DNA of 48,527 nucleotides from a virus. Shown piece by piece: positions 4,815-43,992 of this stretch (position 1 is the first letter of the stretch; every line of letters begins with the position of its first letter). The position numbers were made by a program, and so were the translations under genes. The notes under the pieces are model-generated. The model did not search any database. It was not told the origin of the DNA and was given only the letters and a program-made list of their open reading frames with translations. The stretch covers positions 1 through 48,527 of IMG/VR virus record IMGVR_UViG_3300009124_000031; one strand, 5' to 3'.

Positions 4815-5030
4815 ATGATGTACGGGACTTACATTATCCTCATCTTTGTTTTAATCCTTTTTGCCGTTGGCGGGGTTGAAGCAACGATGAGGTTTTTTGC
4901 TTATGTGGATCTACAGTTACGCTATGCGTGGATTAGATTTAGAATGGAAATGATGCGTAGGAAACTACATCGTCAACTTTCTAAAGACACCGCAAACATT
5001 GAAAAGATCCTACAGGAACTCAAAAAATGA
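4815..5030 (+). CDS. Small membrane protein
   Basis: A 71-residue protein (a second ATG lies at 4818) with an N-terminal helix (YIILIFVLILFAVGGVEA) and a basic amphipathic tail (RMEMMRRKLHRQLSKD) ending in a short coiled-coil-like stretch. It is preceded by an 80-base gap that holds only a weak TATAAT box at 4788. It resembles a membrane protein found near the terminase gene in other cyanophages. Function unknown. Confidence 0.6.
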   Translation: MMYGTYIILIFVLILFAVGGVEATMRFFAYVDLQLRYAWIRFRMEMMRRKLHRQLSKDTANIEKILQELKK

Positions 5031-5296
5031 ACGATAAAGAACTGTCCGACCTTAAACTTGACAGGAAAGAATGTCAGAAGTGTGGTGCTTTGTGGTTAAA
5101 TGGGCAACACTACTGGTCTGGCACAGGAGTAAAAGGAAATGATCTGGATCTTGCTGGTCTGGTCTGCAATAAGCTTGGTGATGACCGTTGTATCAATCCT
5201 TGCAGAGGGCAAGAGGGCGGCGACACCTGGGCGAAGAGACTGGAAGATCTGGAACAAGGAGAAGAAGAAAAACAAGGAAAGTGGTGGGACAAATAA
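5027..5296 (+). CDS. Small Cys-rich, zinc-binding-like protein
   Basis: An 89-residue protein starting in an ATGA overlap. CQKCGALWLNGQHYW (C16, C19) and later Cys residues (LVCNKLGDDRCINPC, C47, C55, C59) suggest a zinc site. The GQHYW...LAGLVCNKLG pattern is one I associate with conserved cyanophage proteins. The C-terminus is highly charged. It lies just upstream of the terminase late promoter. Function unknown. Confidence 0.6.
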   Translation: MNDKELSDLKLDRKECQKCGALWLNGQHYWSGTGVKGNDLDLAGLVCNKLGDDRCINPCRGQEGGDTWAKRLEDLEQGEEEKQGKWWDK

Positions 5297-5299
5297 ATA
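5292..5299 (+). promoter_or_regulatory. Late promoter upstream of gp17
   Basis: AATAAATA lies about 25 bases before the gp17 start. It matches the T4 late box TATAAATA at seven of eight positions. Position and match support recognition by gp55. Confidence 0.6.
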
Positions 5300-5323
5300 C
5301 TAGTAGTGAACTAGTGTTTTGTT

Positions 5324-6973
5324 GTGTCATCAGATCAGATTTATCTTGGTAATCCGCTTCTAAAAAAAGCAAATGTCCAACAGGACTTTACCAAAGAGCA
5401 AATTGAAGAATATCTTAAGTGTGCCAGAGACCCAGTATACTTCACAAAAAATTATGTGAAGATTGTTTCTCTGGATGAAGGTCTTGTGCCATTTAAGATG
5501 TGGGACTTTCAGGAAGAATTAATTCAAAAGTTTCACGACAACAGATTTAACATTGCTAAACTACCGCGACAGACTGGTAAGTCTACCACCGTGGTTTCTT
5601 ATCTGCTGCATTACATTCTTTTTAATGATAATGTTAACGTTGGTATTCTAGCAAACAAAGCATCTACCTCCAGAGACCTGCTGGCACGTTTAGCTACAGC
5701 ATATGAAAACTTGCCTAAATGGATCCAGCAAGGTGTGGTAGTATGGAACAAAGGAAACATTGAGTTAGAAAATGGCAGTAAGATATTGGCAGCTTCTACA
5801 TCTGCGAGTGCTGTCCGAGGTATGTCGTTCAACATCATCTTTCTCGACGAGTTCGCGTTCGTCCCAAATCACATTGCTGACTCGTTCTTTGCATCTGTTT
5901 ATCCTACTATTACTTCTGGTCAAAGCACGAAAGTAATTATCATCTCTACCCCACAGGGTATGAACCACTTCTACAAGATGTGGGTAGATGCTGTCAATGG
6001 TAGAAATGGATATACATTCCACGAAGTTCACTGGTCTCAGGTTCCTGGTAGAGACGAAGCGTGGAAAGAACAAACAATTAAAAACACTTCCGAGAGACAG
6101 TTCACACAGGAGTTTGAGTGTGAGTTCCTTGGATCTGTTGATACATTAATATCTGCTGCTAAATTAAGAGCACTAACCTTTGTAGAACCTATTCAGAAAA
6201 ATAACAAAGGATTAGATATCTACGAAAAACCACAAGAGAAATCAGAATACTTAATAACTGCTGACGTTAGTCGTGGCATCGGTGGCGACTACTCTGCTTT
6301 TATTGTTTATGACATTACAACTGTTCCATACAAAATTGCAGCAAAGTATAGGAACAATGAAATTAAACCAATGCTGTTCCCCAGTGTAATCAATGATGTT
6401 GCTAGGGCATATAATAATGCCTGGGTATTATGTGAAGTGAATGACGTTGGTGATCAAGTAGCATCTATTCTAAACTACGATCTAGAATATCCCAACGTCC
6501 TTATGTGTGCAATGCGTGGACGTGCTGGTCAGATTGTTGGACAAGGTTTTTCTGGATCTAAGACGCAGTTAGGTGTCAAGATGAGCATCACTGTCAAGAA
6601 GGTGGGATGTGCCAACCTCAAGCAAATCATTGAAGATGACAAACTCGTCTTTAATGACTATGATATTATCAACGAACTAACTACATTCATTCAGAAGAAA
6701 CAATCGTTTGAAGCTGATGAAGGATTTCATGATGACCTCGTGATGTGTATGGTTATCTTTGCTTGGTTAGTCCAGCAAGAGTATTTCAAAGAAATGACGG
6801 ACAATGATATTCGTCAAAGAATTTATGAGGATCAGAAAAACCAAATCGAACAGGACATGTCACCATTTGGATTTATCACTACAGGTCTAGAAGGTGATGA
6901 CGGTTTTGTTAGTGACGGAACGGTTTGGTATGGAGATACTCAAGAAGAAGTAGGATATATGTGGAACTACTAA
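5324..6973 (+). CDS. gp17: Terminase large subunit gp17 (packaging ATPase and nuclease)
   Basis: A 549-residue motor that pumps DNA into proheads and cuts the concatemer. Walker A is PRQTGKST (81-88), Walker B IIFLDE (172-177, with catalytic Glu), and the coupling motif ISTPQG follows near 206. The C-terminal nuclease domain shows acidic sites in TADVSRGIGGDYS, CEVNDVGDQ and EGFHDDLVM, as in the RNase H-like nuclease of T4 gp17. The start is GTG at 5324, giving MSSDQIYLGNP, with no clear Shine-Dalgarno. T4 gp17 is 610 residues; this length is normal for cyanophages. gp16 (small subunit) was not seen in this window. Confidence 0.96.
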   Translation: MSSDQIYLGNPLLKKANVQQDFTKEQIEEYLKCARDPVYFTKNYVKIVSLDEGLVPFKMWDFQEELIQKFHDNRFNIAKLPRQTGKSTTVVSYLLHYILFNDNVNVGILANKASTSRDLLARLATAYENLPKWIQQGVVVWNKGNIELENGSKILAASTSASAVRGMSFNIIFLDEFAFVPNHIADSFFASVYPTITSGQSTKVIIISTPQGMNHFYKMWVDAVNGRNGYTFHEVHWSQVPGRDEAWKEQTIKNTSERQFTQEFECEFLGSVDTLISAAKLRALTFVEPIQKNNKGLDIYEKPQEKSEYLITADVSRGIGGDYSAFIVYDITTVPYKIAAKYRNNEIKPMLFPSVINDVARAYNNAWVLCEVNDVGDQVASILNYDLEYPNVLMCAMRGRAGQIVGQGFSGSKTQLGVKMSITVKKVGCANLKQIIEDDKLVFNDYDIINELTTFIQKKQSFEADEGFHDDLVMCMVIFAWLVQQEYFKEMTDNDIRQRIYEDQKNQIEQDMSPFGFITTGLEGDDGFVSDGTVWYGDTQEEVGYMWNY

Positions 6974-7200
6974 TGAATATAGAAGATCAATTCAAATTAG
7001 ATCACCTATTCTTAAAAGAAAGAGTTTGCCGAACTTGTCATAGATGTAAAAATCTTTTAGATGATTTTTATTTGATCAGAAAAGGTAGAGATAATTTAGC
7101 GTCTTCTTATTCATACGAATGTAAGATGTGTACTATTGAAAGAGTGGTACAAAAAAGAAAGTCTGAAATCTATGACAGATGGGAGTATCCAGACTGGTAG
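6973..7200 (+). CDS. Small zinc-ribbon protein
   Basis: A 75-residue protein starting in a TAATG overlap with the gp17 stop. CRTCHRC (C19, C22, C25) and CKMC (C50, C53) are spaced as in a treble-clef zinc site of the endonuclease VII type, but the rest of that nuclease domain is absent. It sits between terminase and tail sheath. Possible roles are DNA or RNA binding; none is shown. Confidence 0.6.
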   Translation: MNIEDQFKLDHLFLKERVCRTCHRCKNLLDDFYLIRKGRDNLASSYSYECKMCTIERVVQKRKSEIYDRWEYPDW

Positions 7201-7240
7201 GCAGTTCATGCATTGTTTCCCCACTTGAAAGAGTGAAAAG

Positions 7241-7249
7241 AATAAATAA
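7241..7249 (+). promoter_or_regulatory. Late promoter upstream of gp18
   Basis: AATAAATAA lies about 40 bases before the gp18 ATG, with no other gene between. It probably starts the gp18-gp19 transcript. Confidence 0.6.
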
Positions 7250-7284
7250 TTTTAGATAAATTTTGAGTACAAAAGGAGAAAAAC

Positions 7285-9240
7285 ATGGCAAGTCAAGTCT
7301 CGCCTGGAGTTGTTCTTAAAGAGCGTGACATTAGTAATGCCGTTGTAGTTGGGTCTTTAGACATTACTTCTGCTATTGCAGGAAGTTTTGCGAAAGGACC
7401 AGTAGGTGAAATTGTAAACATCAACTCTCAGAAAGAACTAGTAGATACATTTGGCAAACCAACCGATGCTAACGCTTCCGACTGGTATGTTGCATCAGAA
7501 TTCTTAGGATACGGTGGTCGTCTAGCAGTAGTACGTGCTACCTCTGGTCTCCTAAACGCTACTTCTGATGGCAGCGCAGTTCTAGTTGCTAACGATGATG
7601 CATGGGAAGCAGGAACAGGAACTTCCGAAGGTTGGGTTGCACGTACCGCAGGAACCTGGGGCAACTCCCTATTGGTTGCTGTAATCGACAGAGGTGCAGA
7701 TCAAATCGTCACATTTGATGCACCATACGCAACACCCCCATCGAAGAACGATACCATCACCTTCGCTAGCGGCAAGACTGGCGTAGTCTACTCTGTAGAC
7801 GGAAACAACATTGCCGTTGTCCTTGATACTCCTTCTTCACTAATTGCAGTTGGTGATACCGTTGCTGGCGTAGGTGCTGGTTCCGCTGACATCACTGTAA
7901 CCGCAGTTAAGAACTGGTATCTAAACACCACAATCGGCAGCACTGGTGTTCAACTATCTGCTGTTGGTCCCCGTCCTGGAACTTCTGCTTTTGCTTCTGG
8001 CAGAGGCATTAACTATGACGAAGTTCACGTAGCAGTCATCGATACTGATGGCGGTATTTCTGGTTCTACAAACACTATTGTTTCCAGAGCAACATACCTC
8101 TCCAAACTTACCGATGCTACTAACTCGGAAGGAGCAGCAAACTACTTCAAGTCTGTAATCAACGAAGAAAGCGCATACGTTTTCCATGGTGCAACTGAAG
8201 CTGCTACTCTAAATGCTGCTTCTACTGGTGCAGGTGCTGCTTCAGGTCAAGCATCTTCTGCAGTAACAGGCAACCTTGCACTCTATGGTGTAACAACTGC
8301 ATCACTATCATCTGGTACTGATGACTATGAATACACCACTGGAGAAATTTCTGACGCATACGATCTATTCCTAGACACGGAAGCAACCGAAGTTGATTTC
8401 GTTCTCATGGGCGGATCAATGGCATCAGAATCCGACACCAAGACTAAAGCAGCAAAAGCAATTGCAATTGCTACTTCCAGAAAAGATGCAATCGCATTTG
8501 TTTCTCCTCACGTCGGAAACCAAATTGGAACAACTGGAGCACTTGCTGCTGCAGACCAAAGAGATAACACCATCGCATTCTTCGATGGTCTAACCTCAAC
8601 CTCATATGCTGTATTCGATAGCGGATACAAATACTTCTATGATCGTTTTAACGATAAGTATCGCTATCTTGCTTGCAACGGTGACGTTGCTGGTCTCTGT
8701 GTATCAACTTCAGCAACTCTCGATGACTGGTATTCACCTGCTGGTCTGAACAGAGGTTCACTAAGAAATGCAATTAAACTTGCATACAACCCCAACAAAG
8801 CAGATAGAGACGCTCTCTATACCGCAAGAATCAATCCTATTGTTTCTTTCCCTGGTTCGGGCATCACTCTATTCGGTGACAAGACCGCACTTGCATCACC
8901 TTCTGCTTTCGATCGCATCAACGTTCGTCGCCTCTTCCTCAATGTTGAGAAGAGAATTGAAGGTCTCGCTAAGGCGGTACTCTTCGACCTCAACGATGAG
9001 ATCACCCGAGGTTCATTCTCTAGTGCTGCTAATGCTTACCTCAATGAGGTTCAAGCAAGAAGAGGTGTTACCGACTTCCTAGTCGTTTGTAACGAAACAA
9101 ACAACACCCCTGAAGTTATTGACAGAAACGAGTTTGTTGCAGAACTATATCTAAAACCAACACGTTCAATTAACTACATCACTGTTACCTTCACCGCTAC
9201 TAAGACTGGCGTTGAATTCAGTGAAGTTATTGGTGGTTGA
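7285..9240 (+). CDS. gp18: Tail sheath protein gp18
   Basis: A 651-residue contractile sheath subunit. The N-terminus (SQVSPGVVLKERDIS) and the early GSFAKGPVGEI segment are typical of T4-type sheath proteins. The C-terminal domain (INVRRLFLNVEKRIEGLAKAV, then YLNEVQARRGVTDFLVVCNE and YLKPTRSINYITVTF) is the conserved interlocking part. The middle is a Gly/Ser/Thr-rich surface insertion. A good ribosome site (AAAAGGAGA) precedes the start. T4 gp18 has 659 residues, so the gene looks intact. It is followed closely by the tail tube gene. Confidence 0.96.
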   Translation: MASQVSPGVVLKERDISNAVVVGSLDITSAIAGSFAKGPVGEIVNINSQKELVDTFGKPTDANASDWYVASEFLGYGGRLAVVRATSGLLNATSDGSAVLVANDDAWEAGTGTSEGWVARTAGTWGNSLLVAVIDRGADQIVTFDAPYATPPSKNDTITFASGKTGVVYSVDGNNIAVVLDTPSSLIAVGDTVAGVGAGSADITVTAVKNWYLNTTIGSTGVQLSAVGPRPGTSAFASGRGINYDEVHVAVIDTDGGISGSTNTIVSRATYLSKLTDATNSEGAANYFKSVINEESAYVFHGATEAATLNAASTGAGAASGQASSAVTGNLALYGVTTASLSSGTDDYEYTTGEISDAYDLFLDTEATEVDFVLMGGSMASESDTKTKAAKAIAIATSRKDAIAFVSPHVGNQIGTTGALAAADQRDNTIAFFDGLTSTSYAVFDSGYKYFYDRFNDKYRYLACNGDVAGLCVSTSATLDDWYSPAGLNRGSLRNAIKLAYNPNKADRDALYTARINPIVSFPGSGITLFGDKTALASPSAFDRINVRRLFLNVEKRIEGLAKAVLFDLNDEITRGSFSSAANAYLNEVQARRGVTDFLVVCNETNNTPEVIDRNEFVAELYLKPTRSINYITVTFTATKTGVEFSEVIGG

Positions 9241-9271
9241 TCCATAGAAACACATAAGAGGATAATCTAAA

Positions 9272-9916
9272 ATGGCAATTTTCACTAGTAAACTAAGCGA
9301 CTTCATTGATAAGGTGGGTCAGGGCGTAAAGCCCAATATGTTTGTTGTTGACATTGAATTTCCTTCTGCAGTCGGCGCTGGCGGAACTGGTACAGGTTCC
9401 GTCGCCGCTGGCGCTGGCGGAGAAAAGGAATTAACAGATTTAATGTGTAAGTCTGCAGCACTTCCCGCATCCAACCTTGGAGTAATCGAAGTTCCTTTCC
9501 GTGGCAGAACGGTAAAGATCGCAGGTGATCGCACCTTCGATACATGGTCCCCAACATTCTTTAACGACAAAGACTTCAAAGTCCGTGCCGTTATGGAGCA
9601 GTGGATGGAAGCAATCAATGGTCATGCAGGTAACACTGCAGATCTTCTAACTCCATCTGCATCTTCTGGTTACACCAGACACCTCCTAGTTCATCAACTA
9701 GAGAAGGGCACTGAACCTACGAATTCTTCAATTCTAAGAACTTACAAACTCTGGTATGCATTCCCAACCAATGTTTCCCAGATTGATCTTGCTTATGACA
9801 GCAACGATCAGATTGAAGAGTTCTCAGTAGAATTCCAATATTCATACTGGACAACCGAAGATATCTCTTCAGCAAGAGCAGGTCTAAGCACCCGTCAGGT
9901 AAACGCCGACGTTTGA
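9272..9916 (+). CDS. gp19: Tail tube protein gp19
   Basis: A 214-residue subunit of the inner tail tube. It matches the family in its order of motifs: SKLSDFIDKVGQGVKPNMF, CKSAALPASNLGVIEVPFRGR, the short helix EQWMEAINGH, and the C-terminal RTYKLWYAFPTNVSQIDLAYDS. A Gly/Ala-rich loop (about residues 35-50) is inserted near the N-terminus, making it longer than T4 gp19 (163). AGAGGAT precedes the start. A second protein of this fold is encoded at 15857. Confidence 0.95.
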   Translation: MAIFTSKLSDFIDKVGQGVKPNMFVVDIEFPSAVGAGGTGTGSVAAGAGGEKELTDLMCKSAALPASNLGVIEVPFRGRTVKIAGDRTFDTWSPTFFNDKDFKVRAVMEQWMEAINGHAGNTADLLTPSASSGYTRHLLVHQLEKGTEPTNSSILRTYKLWYAFPTNVSQIDLAYDSNDQIEEFSVEFQYSYWTTEDISSARAGLSTRQVNADV

Positions 9917-9922
9917 TCTCGA

Positions 9923-9929
9923 CTAAATA
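9923..9929 (+). promoter_or_regulatory. Late promoter upstream of gp20
   Basis: CTAAATA lies about 32 bases before the gp20 ATG in a short gap. It matches the other late boxes in the window. Confidence 0.6.
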
Positions 9930-9960
9930 GTTGAACTACTATTGATTATTACTTTTAGAC

Positions 9961-11619
9961 ATGAGTCAACTATTTGGTTTTCTAATCAACAATAAGGGGG
10001 ACAATAAGGGGCAATCTCCTGTCCCCCCTAATGATAATGATACCGTAGCCGCTGTAGCAGGCGGTTATTTTGGTACTTATGTTGATGTAGAAGGACAAGC
10101 TAGAAACGAATACGACCTCATCAGACGCTATAGAGATATGGCGCTGCATCCTGAGGTCGATTCTGCTATTGACGAGATTGTCAATGAGTTCATTGTTAGT
10201 GATGCAGATGATAGTCCAGTAGAAATTGAACTATCAAATCTTGATGCTGGTACAAGTTTAAAGAATAGAATTCGCACCGAGTTTGATTACATCAAACGAA
10301 TGTTGAACTTCGACAATCGTGCTCATGAACTAATTCGTAATTGGTATATTGATGGTAGAGTATTTTATCATAAAGTTATCGATCTAGACAATCCCAAGAA
10401 AGGGATTACAGAACTTCGTTATATTGATCCTCTAAGATTGAAGAAGGTTAGACAAAAACTTTCTAACAAGGATGGAGACAAAGAGAAGATTAGAGGAACT
10501 GCTTTAGAATATGATTGGGGAGAGTATGTAGATTACTTTATCTACAATCCAAAAGGTTTTGGCAATGCTATGCCACTAACTTCTGGATATGATTACTCCC
10601 AAAATCAAGGTATTAGAATTGCTAAGGATGCAATCACAGAGTGTACCTCTGGATTGAAGGATCTTAATAAGAAGATGATCCTTAGTTTCTTACACAAATC
10701 AATCAAGGCTCTCAATCAATTGAGAATGATTGAAGATAGTCTTGTTATCTATAGATTATCTCGCGCACCTGAGCGCAGAATTTTCTACATCGATGTTGGT
10801 AATCTTCCCAAAGTAAAAGCGGAACAGTACCTCCGTGATGTTATGTCTCGCTATCGCAACAAGCTGGTATATGATGCTAGCACTGGAGAGATTCGCGATG
10901 ACAAAAAGCATATGAGTATGCTTGAGGATTTCTGGTTACCTCGTAGAGAGGGTGGACGTGGCACTGAGATCACAACTCTACCTGGCGGACAGAACCTTGG
11001 CGAACTCAAGGATGTGGAGTATTTTAAAAAGAAACTCTATAACTCTCTCAATCTTCCTCCCTCCCGTCTCACAGACGACAATAAAGGATTCAATCTTGGT
11101 AAGACCACCGAAGTCCTCCGTGACGAACTTAAGTTTGCAAAGTTCATCGGAAGACTACGTAAGAGATTTGCATCATTATTCAACGATATTCTCAAGACCC
11201 AACTTATCCTCAAAGGAGTAATTGCTCCTGAAGATTGGGAAGATATGGTTGAGCATATTCAATATGACTTCCTCTTTGATAATCATTTCAATGAACTGAA
11301 AGAGCAAGAAATGATGCTTGCTCGCGTCAACCTCGCTACGCAAATGGATCCTTTTATCGGCAAGTATTTCTCTACAGAGTATGTACGTCGTCAGGTTCTC
11401 ATGCAGACCGAAAAAGAATTCAAAGAAATTGACAAGGGTATTAAGAAAGATATTGATAATGGTCTTGCACTAAATCCAGCAGACATGAATACTCTGGATA
11501 TGATGAACCAACAGAACACCGCATTTGCTCCTGAGATCAGACAAGCGGAAGCAGAAGCAAGTGCTGAGCGTGATGTTGAAGCGCAAGCAGCACAATCAAA
11601 ACCTAGTTCTAATAAATAA
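9961..11619 (+). CDS. gp20: Portal vertex protein gp20
   Basis: A 552-residue portal subunit through which DNA enters and leaves the head. Family segments are clear: EYDLIRRYRDMALHPEVDSAIDEIVNE near residue 50, IDPLRLKKVR, YRLSRAPERRIFYIDVGNLPK near 265, and FWLPRREGGRGTEITTLPGGQ near 323. This is the gene commonly used as a cyanophage marker. The N-terminus has a polar, Pro/Asn-rich lead (residues 10-30), and the C-terminus is Ala/Glu rich. T4 gp20 has 524 residues. Confidence 0.96.
   Translation: MSQLFGFLINNKGDNKGQSPVPPNDNDTVAAVAGGYFGTYVDVEGQARNEYDLIRRYRDMALHPEVDSAIDEIVNEFIVSDADDSPVEIELSNLDAGTSLKNRIRTEFDYIKRMLNFDNRAHELIRNWYIDGRVFYHKVIDLDNPKKGITELRYIDPLRLKKVRQKLSNKDGDKEKIRGTALEYDWGEYVDYFIYNPKGFGNAMPLTSGYDYSQNQGIRIAKDAITECTSGLKDLNKKMILSFLHKSIKALNQLRMIEDSLVIYRLSRAPERRIFYIDVGNLPKVKAEQYLRDVMSRYRNKLVYDASTGEIRDDKKHMSMLEDFWLPRREGGRGTEITTLPGGQNLGELKDVEYFKKKLYNSLNLPPSRLTDDNKGFNLGKTTEVLRDELKFAKFIGRLRKRFASLFNDILKTQLILKGVIAPEDWEDMVEHIQYDFLFDNHFNELKEQEMMLARVNLATQMDPFIGKYFSTEYVRRQVLMQTEKEFKEIDKGIKKDIDNGLALNPADMNTLDMMNQQNTAFAPEIRQAEAEASAERDVEAQAAQSKPSSNK
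11611..11618 (+). promoter_or_regulatory. Possible late promoter overlapping the gp20 stop
   Basis: AATAAATA covers the last codons and stop of gp20, about 28 bases before the next ATG at 11647. The spacing is right for a late promoter of the gp67-position gene and gp21, but the A/T-rich context makes chance likely too. Confidence 0.4.
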
Positions 11620-11646
11620 AAATATATTTAAACGTTAATATATACT

Positions 11647-11820
11647 ATGGAATCTGAAATTTTGGATATTGTCAATTTGATTTCTGACAAAAAACGTGCA
11701 GAAGCTCTCGACAAAATCGATGACATTCTGTATGCGAAAGCGTCAGAAACTATTGACACATACAAAAAAACAGTAGCTAATACCTACTTTGATGAACCAA
11801 CCCCAGAGCAAGAAGAATGA
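11647..11820 (+). CDS. Small prohead-core-position protein (gp67-like by synteny)
   Basis: A 57-residue acidic, mainly helical protein (MESEILDIVNLISDKKRAEA, then DDILYAKASETIDTYKKTV). It sits between gp20 and gp21, where T4 has the prohead core genes 67 and 68. Its stop overlaps the gp21 ATG. I cannot show sequence similarity to T4 gp67; the assignment rests on position, size and charge. A scaffold-associated role, perhaps cleaved by gp21, is inferred. Confidence 0.6.
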   Translation: MESEILDIVNLISDKKRAEALDKIDDILYAKASETIDTYKKTVANTYFDEPTPEQEE

Positions 11821-12461
11821 AACTCATCACAGAAAACGTAGAAGAAATTACAGTTCTTACTGAAGAGAAGAACGGTAAGAAGCATCTTTATATTGAAGGT
11901 GTTTTCTTACAGTCTGAAATCAGGAACCGTAATGGACGTGTTTATCCTTTCTCTGTTTTAGAAAAAGAGGTAGGTAGATACAACGAAGAGTATGTGAAGT
12001 CTGGTCGTGCTCTAGGAGAACTAGGTCACCCTGATGGTCCTACTGTCAATCTTGATAGAGTTTCCCATAAAATCACAAGTCTTCGCGCTGAAGGTAATAA
12101 CTTCATCGGTAAGGCTCGTATTCTAGATACTCCCATGGGAAAAATTGCATCTTCTCTTCTAGATGAAGGTGTAAAATTGGGAGTTTCTTCTCGTGGTATG
12201 GGTAGCATCGATAAACGCGAAGATGCATCTTATGTCCGCGATGATTTTATGCTTGCTACTGCTGCTGATATTGTAGCAGATCCTTCCGCACCTGATGCAT
12301 TTGTTAACGGTATCATGGAAGGTAAAGAATGGGTATGGGACAACGGTCTTCTCAAAGAGAAAACTATTGCTCAATACAAGCATTCTATCGATACTGCGGC
12401 AAGAGCGCAGTTAGAAGAAAGGGCGCTAAATGCTTTCCAGCATTTCCTTTCAAATCTCTAA
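11817..12461 (+). CDS. gp21: Prohead core protease gp21
   Basis: A 214-residue serine protease that cleaves scaffold and capsid proteins during head maturation. Family features: the N-terminal beta segment KHLYIEGVFLQSEIRNRNGRVYP, the catalytic His in LGELGHPDG (H71), and the catalytic Ser in LGVSSRGMGS (S124 or S125), followed by an acidic stretch. The length equals that of T4 gp21 (212). Translation is coupled to the small gene before it (ATGA). Confidence 0.94.
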   Translation: MKLITENVEEITVLTEEKNGKKHLYIEGVFLQSEIRNRNGRVYPFSVLEKEVGRYNEEYVKSGRALGELGHPDGPTVNLDRVSHKITSLRAEGNNFIGKARILDTPMGKIASSLLDEGVKLGVSSRGMGSIDKREDASYVRDDFMLATAADIVADPSAPDAFVNGIMEGKEWVWDNGLLKEKTIAQYKHSIDTAARAQLEERALNAFQHFLSNL

Positions 12462-12464
12462 TTT

Positions 12465-12472
12465 AATAAATA
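12465..12472 (+). promoter_or_regulatory. Late promoter upstream of gp22
   Basis: AATAAATA lies about 40 bases before the gp22 ATG, just after the gp21 stop. It matches the late box seen before gp17 and gp18. Confidence 0.55.
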
Positions 12473-12511
12473 ATCTTAGAATAGTTATCAGAAATTCAAG
12501 GGGAAACTCAA

Positions 12512-13666
12512 ATGTCAGATATGTTAAACGAAAAGTTTGAGGAGTTTGTAACTGAATCAGGTTTAGTTGTAGAAGCTGGCGATCCTATGCCAACTGTTTC
12601 CGCATCCGTTATTCCTGGTGGTGGCACACATAATGCTTCTGGTCAATCCAAAACAGAAGTTAACTCCAGAGGGGGTAGTGCAGATCCTCAACCTTCGGTT
12701 GGAACCGAAGTTGCTCCTGCAGGTCAGTCGGTAACCGACAATGGCGGTCCACGTCCTGACGGAAACGACGAGGGCGAGGAGAACCCTGGTGCTAAAGCAT
12801 CTGCTCCTGTTTCTCAGGTTTCTGGTGATCCACAACAGCGTGGCACTGGTAAGGACGAACCTTCAGGTTCTGCTCCTAAGTTCGGCGCTGAAATTGCATA
12901 CGGAACCAAGGAAGGTTCCGATGTTGGTTACCCCATCAAGCCTTCATTTGAAGAACTTGATATGTCCGCAGACGTTGCTGCTCTAACAGAAGGTACACAA
13001 CTTTCTGAAGAGTTCAAAGAAAAAGCAACTACAATTTTTGAGGCTGCTGTTAAGTCCAAACTATCTGAAGAGTGGAAGAAACTCGAAGAGCAGTTTGCAA
13101 CTACAGTTTCTGAGAAAGTCGAAGCAACTAAGAAAGAACTTTCTGAGGAAGTAAACGGCACCATCAATTACGCGATCCAGAAGTGGTTGGAAGAAAACCA
13201 AGTTTCTGTTGATCGTGGTATCAGAAATGAGATCACCGAAGACTTCATTGTTGGTCTCAAGAACCTCTTTGAGGAGCACTACATTAATGTCCCCGATGAC
13301 AAGATTGATGTCGTCGAAGGAATGGCAGAAGATATTCGTGAAATGGAACAGCGTCTCGACGAACAGGTCAAGCGCAATGTGGAACTTCATAATCGTCTAA
13401 ATGAATCAACCAAGCAAATCGTTCTGAATACTGTTTCGGAAGGATTGGTTGAGACCCATAAGGAAAAACTTGCTTCTTTAGCAGAAGGAATTGAATTCAC
13501 TTCCGAGGAAGAGTATTCTAAGAAACTCAACACTATCAAAGAATCTTACTTCAAAGAAGGTGTTGCTAAGACTGTAGGAGAAGTAGACGAAACGCCAGTA
13601 GAGAACACCGAAGTATCAGCTTCTATGGCTGCATACCTCCAGGCGATCAATCGCTGGCAATCCTGA
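12512..13666 (+). CDS. gp22: Prohead scaffolding core protein gp22
   Basis: A 384-residue major scaffold on which gp23 assembles. Residues 20-140 are low-complexity and likely disordered (Gly, Pro, Ser, Asp, Glu). From about 150 on it is a long acidic coiled coil, with family segments such as EEHYINVPDDKIDVVEGMA and the C-terminal MAAYLQAINRWQS. The place between gp21 and gp23 settles the call. T4 gp22 has 269 residues; the extra length lies mostly in the disordered lead. AAGGGGAA precedes the start. Confidence 0.92.
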   Translation: MSDMLNEKFEEFVTESGLVVEAGDPMPTVSASVIPGGGTHNASGQSKTEVNSRGGSADPQPSVGTEVAPAGQSVTDNGGPRPDGNDEGEENPGAKASAPVSQVSGDPQQRGTGKDEPSGSAPKFGAEIAYGTKEGSDVGYPIKPSFEELDMSADVAALTEGTQLSEEFKEKATTIFEAAVKSKLSEEWKKLEEQFATTVSEKVEATKKELSEEVNGTINYAIQKWLEENQVSVDRGIRNEITEDFIVGLKNLFEEHYINVPDDKIDVVEGMAEDIREMEQRLDEQVKRNVELHNRLNESTKQIVLNTVSEGLVETHKEKLASLAEGIEFTSEEEYSKKLNTIKESYFKEGVAKTVGEVDETPVENTEVSASMAAYLQAINRWQS

Positions 13667-29322: not shown

Positions 29323-29566
29323 AACTACACCAGAGAATGTAGGAGAAGCAAACGAAGCGTTGTTTCGTGCTACAATGAACTTACCTGCTGCTGCCGCTCA
29401 CTGTGGCATGACGCAGAAAGAAATGAAGTTAACCTTTTGGGAATACCTTAAATATCATGCCCCAGACTTTGAAATCCCTGAAAACACCTCTTCGCTACCC
29501 AGGGGGGAAAAGCAGAGCCCTAAGCAAACTGTTCCAATTCCTCCCAGACCTTTCCCAGGTAAGTGA
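29312..29566 (+). CDS. Small conserved cyanophage protein overlapping dam
   Basis: An 84-residue ORF (ATG 29312, or 29309 one codon earlier). The core KVKTTPENVGEANEALFRAT, then MNLPAAAAHCGMTQKEMKLTFWEYL, looks like a helix-turn-helix-type small family of cyanophages. The last 36 codons overlap dam in another frame and encode a Pro-rich tail of no clear character. Function unknown; DNA binding is possible. Confidence 0.6.
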   Translation: MKVKTTPENVGEANEALFRATMNLPAAAAHCGMTQKEMKLTFWEYLKYHAPDFEIPENTSSLPRGEKQSPKQTVPIPPRPFPGK

Positions 29567-30302
29567 ATACCGCGAACCATTTGTTGGTGGTGGTTCTGTA
29601 GCACTAGAAGTTTCTAAGCGTTATCCTAAAATGGATATCTGGATCAATGATTTGTATGAACCTCTCTACAATTTCTGGTGCGAACTACGAGATCATGGAC
29701 AACAACTCCGAGACGAACTGGTCCAACTTAAACACAGACATATCGATAGGGTATCAGCAAAAAATCTATTCCTTGACGCCAAAGGATATCTTGAGCGACC
29801 TGTGGACGACACTGAAAATTTCCACCGTGCTGTTTCCTTCTATATTGTTAATAAGTGTTCTTTCTCGGGTCTTACTGAATCCAGTTCATTCTCGCCACAA
29901 GCAAGTGACAGCAACTTCTCCTTCAGTGGAATTGACCGATTGTCAGAATACCAAAAACTAATTGCTAACTGGAAAATCACTAACCTAAGTTATGAAGAGC
30001 TCCTCACCGATAACCGAAAAGTATTCACCTACCTTGATCCCCCCTACGAAATCGGATCTAACCTTTACGGTCGTCGCGGGTCAATGCACAAGTCCTTCGA
30101 CCATGATCAGTTTGCTCTCGACTGCGATCGTTTTGTTAGTCCTCAACTTATTTCTTACAATTCGTCGCAACTGATCCGAGACCGTTTCAAGGAGTGGACA
30201 GCTGCTGAATTTGCACACACTTACACCATGCGCTCCGTAGGGAGTTATAATACAGATCAAGCGTCTCGCAAGGAACTCGTCCTTACTAACTATGAAATGT
30301 GA
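29457..30302 (+). CDS. dam: DNA adenine methyltransferase (Dam family)
   Basis: A 281-residue N6-adenine methylase. PLRYPGGKSRAL near the N-terminus and REPFVGGGSVALEV form the AdoMet-binding motifs, and LDPPYEIG (D194) is the catalytic DPPY motif. The SFYIVNKCSFSGLTESSSFS segment is typical of the T4/EcoDam (GATC) group. GATC sites are common in this window, so the phage DNA is probably modified. It overlaps the previous gene by 110 bases. Confidence 0.92.
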   Translation: MPQTLKSLKTPLRYPGGKSRALSKLFQFLPDLSQVSEYREPFVGGGSVALEVSKRYPKMDIWINDLYEPLYNFWCELRDHGQQLRDELVQLKHRHIDRVSAKNLFLDAKGYLERPVDDTENFHRAVSFYIVNKCSFSGLTESSSFSPQASDSNFSFSGIDRLSEYQKLIANWKITNLSYEELLTDNRKVFTYLDPPYEIGSNLYGRRGSMHKSFDHDQFALDCDRFVSPQLISYNSSQLIRDRFKEWTAAEFAHTYTMRSVGSYNTDQASRKELVLTNYEM

Positions 30303-38648: not shown

Positions 38649-38881
38649 TGTATTCATTATGGATTCATGTGGTAGCATTCTTCCACGTTGTAGTGATGAA
38701 TTGTATTCAACCAGTCAACTGGAAGTATTGCTATCGGGTGGACCAGTGGTTGATCCCAGATCTTGTAGAAGGATATGAGATCTGGACACAACAAAAACAT
38801 CCTTATCAAAATGAAAAGGATTATCTAAGGAAGAGTGGTCGAGTGGTTGATGGCACTGGTCTTGAAAACCAGCAACGTTAG
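38648..38881 (+). CDS. Small protein with N-terminal hydrophobic helix; end overlaps tRNA-Ser
   Basis: A 77-residue ORF starting in a TAATG overlap. SLWIHVVAFFHVVVMNCIQP is a hydrophobic helix; then WKYCYRVDQWLIPDLVEGYEI. The last 17 codons lie within the tRNA-Ser gene, so the C-terminus is the tRNA read as protein. The front half looks real; the tail may be acquired. Confidence 0.5.
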   Translation: MYSLWIHVVAFFHVVVMNCIQPVNWKYCYRVDQWLIPDLVEGYEIWTQQKHPYQNEKDYLRKSGRVVDGTGLENQQR

Positions 38882-38914
38882 TAGCGTTCGTGGGTTCAAA
38901 TCCCACCTCTTCCG
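38829..38914 (+). tRNA. tRNA-Ser (anticodon TGA)
   Basis: An 86-base cloverleaf. The acceptor stem GGAAGAG pairs with CTCTTCC; the anticodon stem CTGGT/ACCAG holds loop CTTGAAA with TGA at 38863-38865; the long variable arm AACGTTAGTAGCGTT is typical of tRNA-Ser; and the T arm GTGGGTTCAAATCCCAC is perfect. The discriminator is G38914 and no CCA is encoded. It reads UCA and, by wobble, other UCN codons. Confidence 0.95.
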
Positions 38915-38930
38915 TTTACTATTAAATTAA

Positions 38931-39548
38931 ATGAAAGTAACTTTTGTCAATAATCCCACTCCACATCTTCTTTTAGAGGATGTTTACAGTGAGGATCAAC
39001 TTTCTATTTTGTGGAAAGAAATTGAAATCTTAACTCCAAGTCTAGATCCTCCATCTGAGACAGGATCTGCTTGGCATGAAGATGATGAGCAGACTTTGAA
39101 GAAACAAAATGAAGGTTTGTTTCTATACAATGTTTATAACAGGCGAGATGTTTCTCCTATAATTTCTATCACAGAGCAGATTTTATTCAAAGACATGGCA
39201 GAGCATGTTGATGAAAACAATTGGATCACCAAAGTATACAAAGCGTGTAATTGGAATACTTTGCTTCTAAGTTACTATCAAAATAATCATTACTACGAAC
39301 CACATACAGATCTATCTACATTGACATGTCTGATCTGGTTGTGGAAAGAACCAAAGAAATTTAGTGGTGGCAATCTAACGCTTACTAATTACGATCACAC
39401 TATCGAGTGTAAAAATAATACAGGTATTATTTTCTTTGGTGGTGAAGAACATGCTGTAGATAATGTCACTCTAGATGAAGAGTACAACAATCAGAACCTT
39501 GGACGCTATACTATTTCTACATTTATGGGCACTGGACGCGCCGACTAA
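38931..39548 (+). CDS. 2-oxoglutarate/Fe(II)-dependent oxygenase
   Basis: A 205-residue jelly-roll oxygenase. The iron site is H125-T-D127 in YYEPHTDLST and H174 in GGEEHAVDNV, and R192 in GRYTISTF should bind 2-oxoglutarate. FSGGNLTLTNYD is the family's middle strand. The substrate is unknown. Such genes are frequent in cyanophages and have been linked to nitrogen state or to nucleotide or protein modification without proof. The tRNA lies directly upstream. Confidence 0.85.
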   Translation: MKVTFVNNPTPHLLLEDVYSEDQLSILWKEIEILTPSLDPPSETGSAWHEDDEQTLKKQNEGLFLYNVYNRRDVSPIISITEQILFKDMAEHVDENNWITKVYKACNWNTLLLSYYQNNHYYEPHTDLSTLTCLIWLWKEPKKFSGGNLTLTNYDHTIECKNNTGIIFFGGEEHAVDNVTLDEEYNNQNLGRYTISTFMGTGRAD

Positions 39549-39551
39549 ATA
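39545..39551 (+). promoter_or_regulatory. Late promoter upstream of the nuclease/ligase-like operon
   Basis: CTAAATA overlaps the stop of the oxygenase gene, 22 bases before ATG 39573. It has the same form and spacing as the gp20 and gp23 boxes. Confidence 0.6.
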
Positions 39552-39572: not shown

Positions 39573-41042
39573 ATGGCATACAGTATAAGACCAACTAGTG
39601 CTGAAGAATTGTCACGTAGTTTGGGTGCGTATGCTCCTACAAAACATGCTGACATTTTAAGTCTGTATAATTATTTGACTAGAACTTATAGAGGAGTTTC
39701 TAATCCTCTAATCTTGAATGATAGAAATGGTGGCAACGCTGTCAAGGTCCATCCAGCAGTTCTACAGAGTGACAGTAGATTGGATGTATCTGATGTTAGA
39801 AATGCGGGTAGAACACTGGCACGAGCTGCTGGTGTGACACTCAACGTACTGTTCGGTGTGGGCAGTTCAGGTGGCAGGGGTCCAGGTTATAATATGGGTA
39901 ATGCTGCTGAGGGCGTCCTTGCCGCTGCTATTGCTGCTCGCTTCATCAATAAAGAAAAACGTATCAATAATAATGATGTCCTGCGTGTGCTCACCGAAAT
40001 GAGCAGGCATCTCACACGAACTGGTAACAGTACAGAACATACATTCAAATCAAGGAACTTCAAGACGAGTAGAGAAACCAAGATTGTTCCTGATGACGAT
40101 GTTAGAGTTTTAATTAATTTGTCTCCTGTCAACATGCGACTGGTGTTTGCTGACACTTTGTTGGAAGGAGATGATAGAGCACAGGGTATTTTTGATAGGA
40201 ACCAGATCATCGGACCTTGTGTACAGTATGCTAACTCCCGAGAGATATCTCAACTAGCAAATGTTATGTACTACAATCGTGTCAAAGATACGATTGAAGT
40301 TCTTGCTGACGGTATTGGAGGAGAACTTACTACCAAGGTTGATGTATATCTTCTCATCAATGGACAGAAGTCTATTACTGTTCCAGCAAACTATAGGATG
40401 GGAACTACTCACACACTGAACATCACTCAAATTTCTTTGAAGCGAGAGGTAGATCAGTTTGCTCAAGTTGGTGGGTGGGATATAGAAACTGCTCAAAGCT
40501 TCTGGGGTCTTATTTTAAACGAAGATATTAGAAATAGTCAGCAGGTTCAGAACATCTATGCCAAACATGCTGATGAGCAATATCCCACAACAAAACATCA
40601 TGCTGCTGCAGTGATGGCAGAAGTTTATACCTGGGCAAACCAAAGACTACAAAGCAAACTTAATAATGCGACATGGAAAACTCATTTTGTAAATACTCTG
40701 GATGAATTTGCTACCAAGAATGAGGAGAATGTCAAACTAGTTGAAATCATTGGTAGTGGATATGAGAAGTATGATTTCAGTAAACTCCATGTTGCATTGA
40801 ACGGTCGCAGAGATCTGGAAGTGCCATCTAATCTGACATTGCAGTCTAGGGTTGCAATGTCTAGACCAGACAATGCTAATAGTTCTCCACTTCCAACAGT
40901 TTTTATTGAAGCAGTAAATTCAAATGACAATAAAACTTACAGGTTTTTGAAACTTAGACATAAGATTGAGTGGAGTGGAACTGCTATTCGTAACTACGTT
41001 GAGAAACAACCAGGACTTGCGGAGTACATTGCAGGACAATGA
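39573..41042 (+). CDS. Putative PD-(D/E)XK (restriction-endonuclease-fold) nuclease
   Basis: A 489-residue protein I do not recognise by name. The motif order fits a PD-(D/E)XK nuclease: a helix Glu in NMGNAAEGVLAAAIAARF (E113), Asp in TKVDVYLLING (D257), and QISLK (Q286 to K290) in place of (D/E)XK, followed by QFAQVGGW. The ISLK...QFxQVxGW form is like some type II restriction-type enzymes. This is motif reading only. The gene starts a late-promoter operon and overlaps the ligase-like gene by ATGA. Other options include an uncharacterised virion protein. Confidence 0.5.
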   Translation: MAYSIRPTSAEELSRSLGAYAPTKHADILSLYNYLTRTYRGVSNPLILNDRNGGNAVKVHPAVLQSDSRLDVSDVRNAGRTLARAAGVTLNVLFGVGSSGGRGPGYNMGNAAEGVLAAAIAARFINKEKRINNNDVLRVLTEMSRHLTRTGNSTEHTFKSRNFKTSRETKIVPDDDVRVLINLSPVNMRLVFADTLLEGDDRAQGIFDRNQIIGPCVQYANSREISQLANVMYYNRVKDTIEVLADGIGGELTTKVDVYLLINGQKSITVPANYRMGTTHTLNITQISLKREVDQFAQVGGWDIETAQSFWGLILNEDIRNSQQVQNIYAKHADEQYPTTKHHAAAVMAEVYTWANQRLQSKLNNATWKTHFVNTLDEFATKNEENVKLVEIIGSGYEKYDFSKLHVALNGRRDLEVPSNLTLQSRVAMSRPDNANSSPLPTVFIEAVNSNDNKTYRFLKLRHKIEWSGTAIRNYVEKQPGLAEYIAGQ

Positions 41043-42253
41043 GTAAGAATACACACTTAGAACACTTAGAAGATAGTATCCTCCTTGACGGTATCAACGG
41101 TGCCAAGGATGCATTCAAGTTTTTAGATCAACTGGCAAAAACTTTTTCAGGTACATCTGGTAACAACTTCAAAATTACTACGAAATGGGATGGTGCTCCT
41201 GCAATTTTCTGTGGCATTTATCCTGGTACAGATAAGTTTTTTGTCGGTACAAAATCTGTCTTCAATAAAGATGCAAAGATCAACTTTACTGATGATGATA
41301 TTGATGTCAATCATGGTCACGCTCCTGGTCTAGTATCTAAACTGAAAGCGGCTCTTAAGTATTTTCCTTCTCTTGGCATTCAAGGAGTTGCTCAGGGAGA
41401 TCTTTTATTTACTGATGATAAGAAAATACAAATCATTGGTGGTAAGAATTGCATAACTTTCCAACCAAATACAATTACCTATTGTATTTCTGATGATAAT
41501 GATCTACACGCTCAGGCAAAAAAAGCAAAGATTGGAGTAGTTTTCCACACAGCATATAAAGGAAGTGACATTAGTTCTATGAATGCTTCTTTTGGGTATG
41601 ATATTAGCAAGTTGGAAAAATCAAATGATGTGCTAGTGCTTAGTGCAGAAACTTCTCATCTTGGGAAAGATACTTTACTTACAGAACAAGAATATGTAGT
41701 TCTTGGAAGGTTGAAAAAACAAAGTCCAAATCATTTGAGGAAAGCAGGAGCATTCCTTAACGAAGTTGCTGATCAGATTGTCAAGAAAGATCAACTAACA
41801 ATTGGACCTAGACTAAAAATCTTCTTCAATGCATATGTCCGCCAGGGTAAGACTGTTCCATCTGCTGCAAAGTTCTATGCAGAGTTTACTGAATATTTTA
41901 CTAACGAATGTCAGAAAGCAGTAGATAAGGTCAAGACGCCGAAAGCGAAGAGCACCAAGAAAAAGAAAATGTATGACGGTCTTGATTTTATCGAGAAGCA
42001 CAAAGATGCACTCCATAGCACAGTCGAACTATATAAGATACTGCAAGAAGCTAAACTGGTCTTTATCAGAAAACTTGAGAAGGGCGAAAGGATTGGAACA
42101 TATCTGAAGACCGAGGATGGTTATGAAATTACAGCACCAGAAGGTTATGTTGCCATCAGTGATGGAACTAATGCAGTAAAACTGGTTGATCGATTGTCAT
42201 TCAGTGTGGCGAACTTCAACGTATCTAAGGACTGGGTATCTGGAGACAAATGA
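41039..42253 (+). CDS. Covalent nucleotidyltransferase, DNA/RNA ligase-like (DUF6267-like)
   Basis: A 404-residue protein. TTKWDGAPAIF contains motif I, K49-x-D-G52, the adenylated Lys of ATP ligases. GVAQGDLLF (G120-D121) fits motif III, EGYVAI (E368-G369) motif IV and VKLVDR (K381) motif V. A helical, Lys-rich insertion (about residues 240-345) separates III from IV. This suggests a ligase that seals DNA or RNA ends, although T4-like phages usually also carry gp30. Start and stop are in ATGA overlaps. The family name is tentative; the motif set is visible. Confidence 0.68.
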   Translation: MSKNTHLEHLEDSILLDGINGAKDAFKFLDQLAKTFSGTSGNNFKITTKWDGAPAIFCGIYPGTDKFFVGTKSVFNKDAKINFTDDDIDVNHGHAPGLVSKLKAALKYFPSLGIQGVAQGDLLFTDDKKIQIIGGKNCITFQPNTITYCISDDNDLHAQAKKAKIGVVFHTAYKGSDISSMNASFGYDISKLEKSNDVLVLSAETSHLGKDTLLTEQEYVVLGRLKKQSPNHLRKAGAFLNEVADQIVKKDQLTIGPRLKIFFNAYVRQGKTVPSAAKFYAEFTEYFTNECQKAVDKVKTPKAKSTKKKKMYDGLDFIEKHKDALHSTVELYKILQEAKLVFIRKLEKGERIGTYLKTEDGYEITAPEGYVAISDGTNAVKLVDRLSFSVANFNVSKDWVSGDK

Positions 42254-42810
42254 GAAAGATTGTTCTAGCATTCGGGAGAATGAACCCTCCCACTATTGGT
42301 CACGAAAAACTAATCAAAATTTGTGCCGATGTTGCTAGGCAAAATAATTGCGACTACCAAATTTATTTGAGTAATAGCAATGACAAAAAGAAGAACCCTC
42401 TAGATCCACAGACAAAGATCAAGTTAGTGAAGAAAATGTTTCCCACTTATGCTGATCATATTCATGTGGATAGAACAGTATCTAATCCATTCAAATTATT
42501 AGCAATGTTCAATGGAGAATATGATGATGTAATTTGGGTTGCGGGTGGCGAAGATGCTGCTAATTATGATAGAAGTTTTCATAATCATATGAAAACAGAA
42601 GCACCAGACTTTTTCTTCAGATCTCTAGTTATTCACAGTTCTGGAGAGAGAAGTGCAGATGCCGAAGGCGCAACTGGTATGTCAGGTACAAAGATGAGAA
42701 ATTTTGCTTTGCAATCAGATTTTAATAGTTTCCGTTCAGGTATGCCAACAACAATTAGTGATAGAGAATGTAGATCCGTGATGAAAAAAATCCAAGATTA
42801 TATGCTATGA
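42250..42810 (+). CDS. NMN-adenylyltransferase-like nucleotidyltransferase
   Basis: A 186-residue protein of the HxGH family. GRMNPPTIGHEKL (G9-H18) is the first motif with T15-x-G-H18, and GMSGTKMR (S145-R150) is the C-terminal SxTxxR motif in a slightly changed form (SGTKMR). Such enzymes transfer AMP or CMP to NMN or related substrates. T4-like cyanophages often encode one; the substrate is unproven, with NMN the best guess. Translation is coupled to the ligase-like gene before it and the small gene after it. Confidence 0.82.
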   Translation: MRKIVLAFGRMNPPTIGHEKLIKICADVARQNNCDYQIYLSNSNDKKKNPLDPQTKIKLVKKMFPTYADHIHVDRTVSNPFKLLAMFNGEYDDVIWVAGGEDAANYDRSFHNHMKTEAPDFFFRSLVIHSSGERSADAEGATGMSGTKMRNFALQSDFNSFRSGMPTTISDRECRSVMKKIQDYML

Positions 42811-43031
42811 AGAATTTTAAGAGACTACGAGAAGAAGCACTTCGTCAGCAGCAGAGACATGACGAAGTATTCAGGGAAGGTGATAGTGTTATGTCTGCTC
42901 GTACAGGTATAAAAGGAACTATTCATAGAGTAGGTGGAAACTATGCCATTGTTATTTCTGAAGAGGGAGAAATGTTCCGCGAATGGATGAAGAACATCCG
43001 TGCTATAAATAAAGAAAGGAAACAAGTATAG
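42807..43031 (+). CDS. Small SH3/KOW-like protein
   Basis: A 74-residue basic protein starting in an ATGA overlap. VFREGDSVMSARTGIKGTIH, then RVGGNYAIVISEEGEMFREW, reads as a small beta barrel of the KOW/SH3 type. I associate the pattern with conserved cyanophage proteins. Function unknown; RNA or DNA binding is possible. Confidence 0.6.
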   Translation: MKNFKRLREEALRQQQRHDEVFREGDSVMSARTGIKGTIHRVGGNYAIVISEEGEMFREWMKNIRAINKERKQV

Positions 43032-43041
43032 TGTTTAAAGG

Positions 43042-43992
43042 ATGAATAAGCAGCAACCAACGACCAGTGTGCGTCATAATGACGCATTCTCTCAAGGATT
43101 GATGTCTTCATACACTCGTTGGATGGGTGGTGAGGGATTTCAGGGATCCACTCTTTCCGAGGAAAGCATTCCTTCCTTAGAGAAAAAAGAAACCAAGGAT
43201 GATTTCTCGCAAAAAGATCCAAAAGCAAAAGCAGGTGCTCCAGATCCCGCTACCAACCTCCGCGCAGGTCTAGGTGTTAAGCAGTCCCATGGCGCAGAGA
43301 TTAGAGATACCACAAAGGTGGTTGCTCGTGAAGAGTATGGTAAGAAAAAGAAGTGTCCTGAGTGTGGTGGAAAGGGTTGCTCCCACTGTGGTGGTGATGG
43401 ATATCATTCCATGAAAAAAGAAGCACTATCATTTGAACTTAATGGTGTTGAGTACGTCTTTGAAGAGGAAACTCTAGAAGAAGGTAGCATGAAGCAAGCA
43501 CGTAAGAATGTTGGTGCTTCTACCTGCTGGAAGGGTTACACGGCGAAGGGCACTAAGATGAAGAATGGTAAGTCCGTTCCTAATTGCGTCAAAGAATACT
43601 TTGAAAAAGATAAAGACGGCAAGATGGTGAAGAAGCACAACTGTGCTAAAAAAGTTAAGAAGGAAGGACTTGAGTATAATGTTGTTCCTGGTGAACACAC
43701 CATGCTAGAAGATGGAACTGTCACTCACTATGATATTGTGAGAGAAAATGAAATTATTCATAACGTTCCTGTCAACGAACTTGAGATCATGATCAGTGAA
43801 GTTCATGAGCACGTTGTAAACGATGACAAGAACAGAGAAGTTCTTGGTGAAAAGAAACTTGATCCTGTTGGTAAAGCAGACGCTGATATTGACAATGATG
43901 GTGATGTAGATAAGTCTGACAAGTATCTTCACGCTCGCCGCAAGAAGATCAGTAAGATCGTCTCTGCGAAGGGAAAAGCATCAAAAAAGTGA
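43042..43992 (+). CDS. Modular protein with zinc-finger-like and EF-hand motifs
   Basis: A 316-residue Lys/Glu-rich protein. A DnaJ-like CPECGGKGCSHCGGDG cluster (C105, C108, C113, C116) can bind zinc. ASTCWKGYTAKGTKMKNG is a segment I associate with cyanophage virion proteins. Near the C-terminus D282-I-D-N-D-G-D-V-D-K-S-D293 is a canonical EF-hand calcium loop (DxDxDGxVxxxD), followed by a basic helix (HARRKKISKIVS). It lies in a late-expressed unit, so a virion or head-internal role is likely. No known enzyme domain is seen. Confidence 0.7.
   Translation: MNKQQPTTSVRHNDAFSQGLMSSYTRWMGGEGFQGSTLSEESIPSLEKKETKDDFSQKDPKAKAGAPDPATNLRAGLGVKQSHGAEIRDTTKVVAREEYGKKKKCPECGGKGCSHCGGDGYHSMKKEALSFELNGVEYVFEEETLEEGSMKQARKNVGASTCWKGYTAKGTKMKNGKSVPNCVKEYFEKDKDGKMVKKHNCAKKVKKEGLEYNVVPGEHTMLEDGTVTHYDIVRENEIIHNVPVNELEIMISEVHEHVVNDDKNREVLGEKKLDPVGKADADIDNDGDVDKSDKYLHARRKKISKIVSAKGKASKK

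Follow-up and report, generated by a model that had tools for sequence, protein, structure and literature searches.

In this study, a late operon in the virus record IMGVR_UViG_3300009124_000031 was investigated, the whole 48,527-base record being referred to below as the window. The window is of the T4-like cyanophage type, with gp43-, UvsX-, gp41- and MazG-like genes lying immediately 5' of the operon, and the relatives keep the same order of these genes. An earlier note on this DNA had described three genes chained by ATGA overlaps behind a late-promoter box; their coordinates, lengths and overlaps were all borne out, and a fourth ATGA-coupled gene (42807-43031), which that note overlooked, extends the chain. 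The features, in window coordinates, are as follows.

39545..39551, plus strand: late-promoter box CTAAATA, 28 nucleotides (nt) 5' of the first ATG (gene 1)
39573..41042, plus strand: gene 1, P0001, 489 amino acids (aa), slot protein and probable PD-(D/E)XK nuclease (phrog_3560)
41039..42253, plus strand: gene 2, P0002, 404 aa, DUF6267 / T4-GC_71, predicted ligase-superfamily covalent nucleotidyltransferase (PF19782)
42250..42810, plus strand: gene 3, P0003, 186 aa, by its motifs a T/HxGH-family nucleotidyltransferase, T4-GC_190 ('cytidyltransferase'; phrog_3041, phrog_395)
42807..43031, plus strand: gene 4, 74 aa, SH3-like, a separate ATGA-coupled open reading frame (ORF) (phrog_4808, phrog_395)
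43004..43011, plus strand: next late box, TATAAATA, 38 nt 5' of the next gene
43042..43992, plus strand: downstream gene, 316 aa, with phrog_4359 in common with the virion-labelled SSCSM1_92

We observed that the position 5' of DUF6267, which gene 1 occupies in the window, is an exchangeable slot whose gene is replaced whole, as a single cassette, while genes 2 and 3 stay. Across 317 loci, 296 complete ORFs were found in this slot and fell into 15 BLAST clusters, the family of the window being c1, and 12 of the 317 loci had no ORF or a short ORF only. In one pair of loci (L260/L262), DUF6267 and gene 3 are each 100% identical and the slot families are unrelated; further swaps beside near-identical DUF6267 and gene 3 were seen in L204/L210, L237/L241, L131/L132, L352/L359 and L311/L312, the slot families of the last pair (c5 and c7) being remotely linked by HHalign. 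In all six swap pairs, the DNA identity reaches the slot gene and restarts at or near the end of its ORF. Among the DUF6267 pairs that are at least 99% identical, 23 of 242 differ in slot superfamily, though the pairs are not independent. All four large DUF6267 clades contain several slot families, the largest (rich in c1) containing four, and the same families recur across clades. A linked immunity gene is unlikely because the swaps change one gene only, and for the same reason a toxin-immunity pair was disfavoured; self-protection may instead come from DNA modification, target-site absence or the conserved partners. A DNA adenine methylase-like ORF at window 29457-30302 (YPGGK..., DPPYE) is a possible source of such protection for the phage DNA. 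In another locus (L029:4606-7215), the slot protein and DUF6267 stand as one 869-aa ORF, which is either a fusion or a frameshift error.

The expectation that the three genes would be found together in other phages was borne out for two of them, gene 3 lying directly 3' of DUF6267 in 268 of the 273 loci with room downstream (gene 1 or gene 2, and in a few cases gene 3, having served to retrieve the loci), whereas the gene 1 sequence family is present in only part of the loci. In loci without it, a different D...SxK protein usually occupies the slot. The idea that all slot families form one detectable sequence family was rejected, as HHalign joins only a few of them: c0 with SCSM1_90 and c13, c8 with c10, c5 with c7, and S-PM2_143 with c11 and c5. 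Their common signature is an Asp followed by a hydrophobic residue and SxK, often with Gln or Gly after it, and this shared motif suggests that the slot families may have one common fold. An automated D...SxK test gave the correct match in 7 of the 9 larger slot families compared with 3 of 19 true control families (4 of 20 scored, one of them, L016, being itself a slot family); c3 (ISHK) and c7 (SSK) were assigned by eye, the automated c7 match being spurious. The c0 family has 12 invariant residues, D and SLK among them, and the singleton slot ORF c14 falls outside the pattern.

Gene 1 of the window (P0001) has close relatives on 20 viral contigs, as well as relatives of about 30% identity in ACG-2014f phages. 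The PD-(D/E)XK-like motif order read earlier in this protein is upheld, with E113, D257, S288-L289-K290 and also Q298 invariant over 14 homologues, some of which are only about 30% identical; the conserved Glu, Asp and xxK follow one another in PD-(D/E)XK order, in the variant form SxK. From these motifs, gene 1 is probably a PD-(D/E)XK nuclease. Its AlphaFold2 model has a mean predicted local distance difference test score (pLDDT) of 77.9, which drops below 50 at the active-site loop and is low around the active-site strand. Checking this model against known structures for the alpha-beta-beta-beta-alpha-beta core placed a restriction enzyme, HinP1I, at the top of the list, in a match that is suggestive, though weak and well within the range of chance (Z 4.9, 200 residues, root-mean-square deviation (rmsd) 5.8). 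Profile searches of P0001 (Pfam, NCBIfam, PADLOC) found no family, and a sequence search against solved structures found no relative. Foldseek with the P0001 and P0002 models against the PDB gave no match below E 0.001, and the BFVD matches at E below 0.001 were all uncharacterized phage proteins, with gene 1 family members on top.

Gene 2 (P0002) belongs to Pfam DUF6267 (PF19782, E 5e-126), and matches to this family were obtained from 465 phage records. The ligase motifs ascribed to it stood as to KxDG (K49-W-D-G52), which is present in 262 of 262 distinct DUF6267 proteins, but motifs IV and V are best placed near the C-terminus and not in the IGVVFH stretch. There, EG.V...K.V.R occurs in 261 of the 262 proteins, and P0002 reads E368GYV...K381LVDR385, with E368-G369 and K381 conserved. 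The AlphaFold2 model of P0002 has a pLDDT of 86.8, and with a second-look structural aligner every one of its top 24 matches was an RNA or a DNA ligase (Z from 8.8 down to 6.3), the list being headed by the Naegleria RNA ligase (Z 8.8 over 181 residues, rmsd 3.6), TbREL1 (7.7) and T4 Rnl2 (7.5); a Z near 8 by itself may arise by chance. The motif order and the uniform ligase list make it likely that P0002 is a covalent nucleotidyltransferase of the ligase superfamily, with a predicted fold nearest to that of RNA ligases, and the structural list supports an adenylation-domain fold. Sequence comparison with solved structures detected no similarity of P0002 to solved ligases. Motif V is KLVDR and not KxK, and because the model has no OB-fold domain after this motif (one helix, about 20 residues after K381), P0002 is not a canonical DNA ligase of the T4 gp30 type. 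Short DUF6267 homologues in L108 and L109 (Bellamy, P-TIM68) have DNA methyltransferase and helicase genes as neighbours and lie apart from gene 3.

Gene 3 (P0003) matches the phage cytidyltransferase families phrog_3041 (E 1e-52) and phrog_395 (E 5e-35). It had been taken for an HxGH protein, which needs correction: the motif is TxGH (T15-I-G-H18), as in 203 of 216 gene 3 relatives, and the second motif, MSGTKMR, fits [IM]S[AG][ST]KxR. By these motifs and matches, P0003 is a T/HxGH-family nucleotidyltransferase and a member of T4-GC_190. Against the profile of nicotinamide mononucleotide (NMN) adenylyltransferase (NMNAT) it scored 12.6 bits, the cut-off being 341, and its NadR/NMNAT matches were weak and sub-threshold. 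In S-PM2, gene 3 is joined to the second half of DUF6267 in a single ORF, which, together with the adjacency in 268 of 273 loci, indicates that the pair works as a stable functional unit. In many phages the gene 3 protein includes the counterpart of gene 4 as its C-terminal part, and gene 4 matches residues 208-271 of phrog_395. The label 'ribonucleotide reductase alpha subunit', which phrog_4808 gives to the 74-aa SH3-like family, looks like a propagated misannotation. The late unit of nuclease-, ligase- and nucleotidyltransferase-like genes that the earlier note proposed is retained as regards its late box and the motifs in three genes, though the fold of gene 1 is weakly supported; the joint role in DNA end processing, RNA repair or defence that the note inferred is conjectural.

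The late box CTAAATA is present where it had been reported, and its position is supported in relatives. Enrichment of CTAAATA by raw count was rejected, with 10 copies seen in the window against 7.6 expected, and since the count is near chance, it is the position of the box and not its number that carries the information. Five of the nine plus-strand copies in the window lie 23-47 nt 5' of listed gene starts, and the gene starts so preceded include 9961 (portal-like) and 13717 (major-capsid-like), both names being a reading of the window translations. In related loci, [ACT]TAAATA occurs within 90 nt 5' of the slot gene in 278 of 293 cases (95%), compared with 650 of 2653 other ORFs (24%) and 439 of 7220 random positions (6%). 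Judging from this promoter sequence, the operon is transcribed late. A tRNA-Ser(TGA) gene at window 38829-38914 lies just 5' of a 2-oxoglutarate (2OG)-Fe(II) oxygenase gene and of the late operon.

The T4 capsid-targeting sequence is MKTYQEFIAEA. Short N-terminal sequences of this kind direct T4 internal proteins to the prohead, targeting depending on positions 4 and 7 and processing on positions 8 and 10 (PMC9026906). Of the 3,843 distinct ORFs in related loci, 100 carry the strict motif, and 98 of these are gene 3 homologues; the sequence of the other two reads as the N-terminus of gene 3, truncated where the contig ends. One of the 553 ORFs of the whole S-SCSM1 genome fits the tight pattern, and it is gene 3. 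In S-CREM2, 3 of 104 tested coding sequences fit, all three of them virion-detected (an S-adenosylmethionine (SAM) hydrolase, a kinase-like protein and gene 3), and 0 of the 81 virion-undetected ones do (Fisher p 0.01). Leaders were also counted over 37 DUF6267 loci of genome assemblies, for the most part bins from marine metagenomes; for gene 3, 20 loci from the slot-protein search were added. They are found on 14 of 35 DUF6267 proteins (e.g. MYSFKQYLNEAKNTHLEH; p 4e-14), 7 of 29 slot proteins (e.g. MHSFKTYLNEAKV; p 8e-7) and 24 of 40 gene 3 proteins (p 1e-25), compared with 5 of 461 other ORFs, the p-values being inflated by kinship among the sequences. In Methylophilales phage Melnitz, such a leader stands at the start of four genes, namely the slot gene, DUF6267, a gene of 130 aa and gene 3, where it is one residue shorter. 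The N-terminus of gene 4 in the window, MKNFKRLREEA, resembles the targeting sequence (F4, L7, E10), and positions 4, 7, 10 and 11 are conserved in 43 split homologues. The literature searched, which covered few subscription papers, contained nothing linking capsid targeting to these cyanophage proteins.

Leaders of similar appearance were noticed on other proteins. An ORF at L238:6126-6644 starts MKTYSQFIEEGKKKGL, very like the T4 internal-protein leader, and GKKKGL at its start is reminiscent of GL(W/Y)ANIHAKRKRG, a motif in window ORF 803-1240 (MRDYKEFKELCEAKRGLYANIHAKRKRG). A 961-aa protein of ACG-2014f (L102:11346-14231) has a capsid-targeting-like N-terminus and an HNH-type stretch and is encoded close to two Dam methylase genes; the relative of this protein in S-CREM2 (gp12, 'Cas9-like') was detected in virions. 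The SAM hydrolase and kinase-like virion proteins with capsid-targeting-type N-termini lie at 3837-13331 of the S-CREM2 locus (L370), and S-CREM2 gp13, gp15 and gp136, which were detected in virions too, have looser forms of the leader at their N-termini.

Virion data are available for relatives. The gene 3 homologue was detected by mass spectrometry in virions of S-SM1 (PMC3037559), S-SCSM1 (PMC9602691), S-SZBM1 (PMC9146016) and S-CREM2 (PMC10665884). In the GenBank record of S-SCSM1, SSCSM1_89 to _93 bear virion-protein labels; among them are the slot protein SSCSM1_90 and SSCSM1_92, which is a relative of the window protein at 43042-43992. The record has 48 such labels by count, compared with the 45 proteins that the paper reports, so a one-to-one match of labels with spectra is not assured.

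The capsid-targeting N-termini, the virion detection of relatives and the exchange of the nuclease cassette together point to injected cargo. We estimate a probability of roughly 55% that the operon is a late-made, head-packaged and co-injected enzyme module with an exchangeable nuclease. The enzymes of the module would be made late and loaded into the prohead, to enter the next cell together with the DNA. Gene 1 would fill a slot for PD-(D/E)XK-type nucleases that are swapped as a single cassette, while the partners, the DUF6267 ligase-like adenylyltransferase and the TxGH nucleotidyltransferase with its SH3-like part, would be kept. The nuclease would act immediately after injection on a target that varies among hosts or competitors, for which the host chromosome, a plasmid, a defence element or a resident phage are candidates, and the partners may aid it, nucleotidylation, sealing and control being examples of how. 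The late operon, the conserved motifs, the cassette exchange and the leaders on relatives are shown by the present computation, and the gene 3 relatives in virions by published mass spectrometry; that the enzymes are packaged in this phage, injected and catalytically active, what they act on and how they share the work is what we infer. The narrower proposal, that a head-carried restriction-type nuclease and its partners are injected to destroy host- or competitor-specific nucleic acid, with the specificity changed by swapping a single gene, is tentative, and we hold it at somewhat less than even odds.

Several observations weigh against the injected module. None of window genes 1-3 carries a capsid-targeting tag, so packaging in this phage rests on homology, and in the window lineage it could proceed by association or have been lost; the leader of gene 4 has R at the cleavage-relevant position 8. 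The PD-(D/E)XK fold finds weak support in the P0001 model. In ACG-2014f and S-SCSM1 the operon genes are not together in one operon, and the DUF6267 protein of S-SCSM1, encoded far away, is not virion-labelled. DUF6267 and the slot protein were not among the detected virion proteins of S-SZBM1 (PMC9146016), and the authors of two of the proteome papers caution that carry-over may account for non-structural proteins.

Other explanations were weighed on the same evidence. As cyanomyoviruses are without gp30 (PMC2984593), DUF6267 could be their missing replicative ligase, sealing nicks in phage DNA instead of T4 gp30, with the NMNAT-like partner recycling NMN or supplying NAD/ATP and the nuclease serving as a separate repair enzyme. 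The ligase motifs, the predicted ligase-superfamily fold and the location of DUF6267 between gp41/MazG and gp61 in many genomes agree with such a role, but the promoter is late and not early or middle, the model has no OB-fold domain after motif V, which is KLVDR instead of KxK, and 14 of 35 DUF6267 proteins have capsid-targeting leaders. Moreover, no DUF6267 was found in the part of the S-CREM2 genome searched, about 95 kb of 175 kb, and we regard a replicative ligase as unlikely. The exchange of the slot gene could also be selfish, the slot genes being PD-(D/E)XK homing-type endonucleases that cut alleles without them and copy themselves into a favoured site. Homing endonucleases are common in phages, and homing would agree with the replacement of whole ORFs between near-identical flanks and with the recurrence of the same slot families in different DUF6267 clades. 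It is nonetheless improbable in our judgement, as nearly every locus has a single full-length slot gene behind a late promoter, with no ORF or a short one in 12 of 317 loci, and as homing requires neither the leaders on 7 of 29 slot proteins nor a virion-labelled slot protein.

A metabolic role would make gene 3 an injected NMN adenylyltransferase that keeps early NAD high, possibly against NAD-depleting defence, with gene 2 in a using or regulating part and gene 1 incidental. NAD regulation was proposed by the virion-proteome authors, and the weak NadR/NMNAT profile matches of P0003 point the same way; we give this role little credence, since the 12.6 bits fall far below the NMNAT cut-off of 341, the motif is TxGH and not HxGH, and the exchangeable nuclease slot is left unexplained. 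It is very improbable that the proteins are catalytically dead and only fill the head or associate with the scaffold. T4 IPIII does have a role in head assembly (PMC9026906), but in each of the three families the catalytic-type residues rank with the best-conserved positions, including where conservation is otherwise slight.

T4-GC_71 and T4-GC_190 are common across T4-like cyanophages. If the injected-module reading is true, abundant ocean viruses deliver nucleic-acid enzymes at the moment of infection, which might account for the attack on host DNA by cyanophages that lack DenA/DenB, and one exchangeable gene becomes a candidate determinant of host range or of competition among phages. The capsid-targeting pattern is also a simple means to list injected proteins in cyanophage genomes.

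Among T4-like systems, the module would stand with the internal-protein cargo, and no precedent for its content was found in the literature searched. Like type II PD-(D/E)XK enzymes such as HinP1I, P0001 has a helix E, a D and then xxK in order; it differs in having Ser, not an acidic residue or Gln, two residues before the Lys, in being about twice as long, and in being a swapped cassette without a cognate methylase. DUF6267 shares the KxDG, EG and K motifs with the Rnl2-like and NgrRnl RNA ligases, with Z 7.5-8.8 over about 180 residues, but has a long predicted helical insertion (about residues 216-348) between motifs and is without the second Lys of motif V and the C-terminal extra domain. 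P0003 belongs with the cyanophage 'cytidyltransferase' T4-GC_190, a core gene of cyanophages that has been detected in virions (PMC3037559), and differs from other members in that the window lineage is without the N-terminal targeting extension and has the SH3-like C-terminal part as a separate ORF. The T4 internal proteins IPI, IPII, IPIII and Alt are likewise late genes with an N-terminal targeting motif (positions 4, 7, 8 and 10) and are found in virions, and their cargo changes fast between related phages. T4 carries small inhibitors and an ADP-ribosyltransferase, whereas the cargo here would consist of enzymes resembling nucleases, ligases and nucleotidyltransferases, one of them in an exchangeable slot next to partners that are conserved; the window copies lack the tag.

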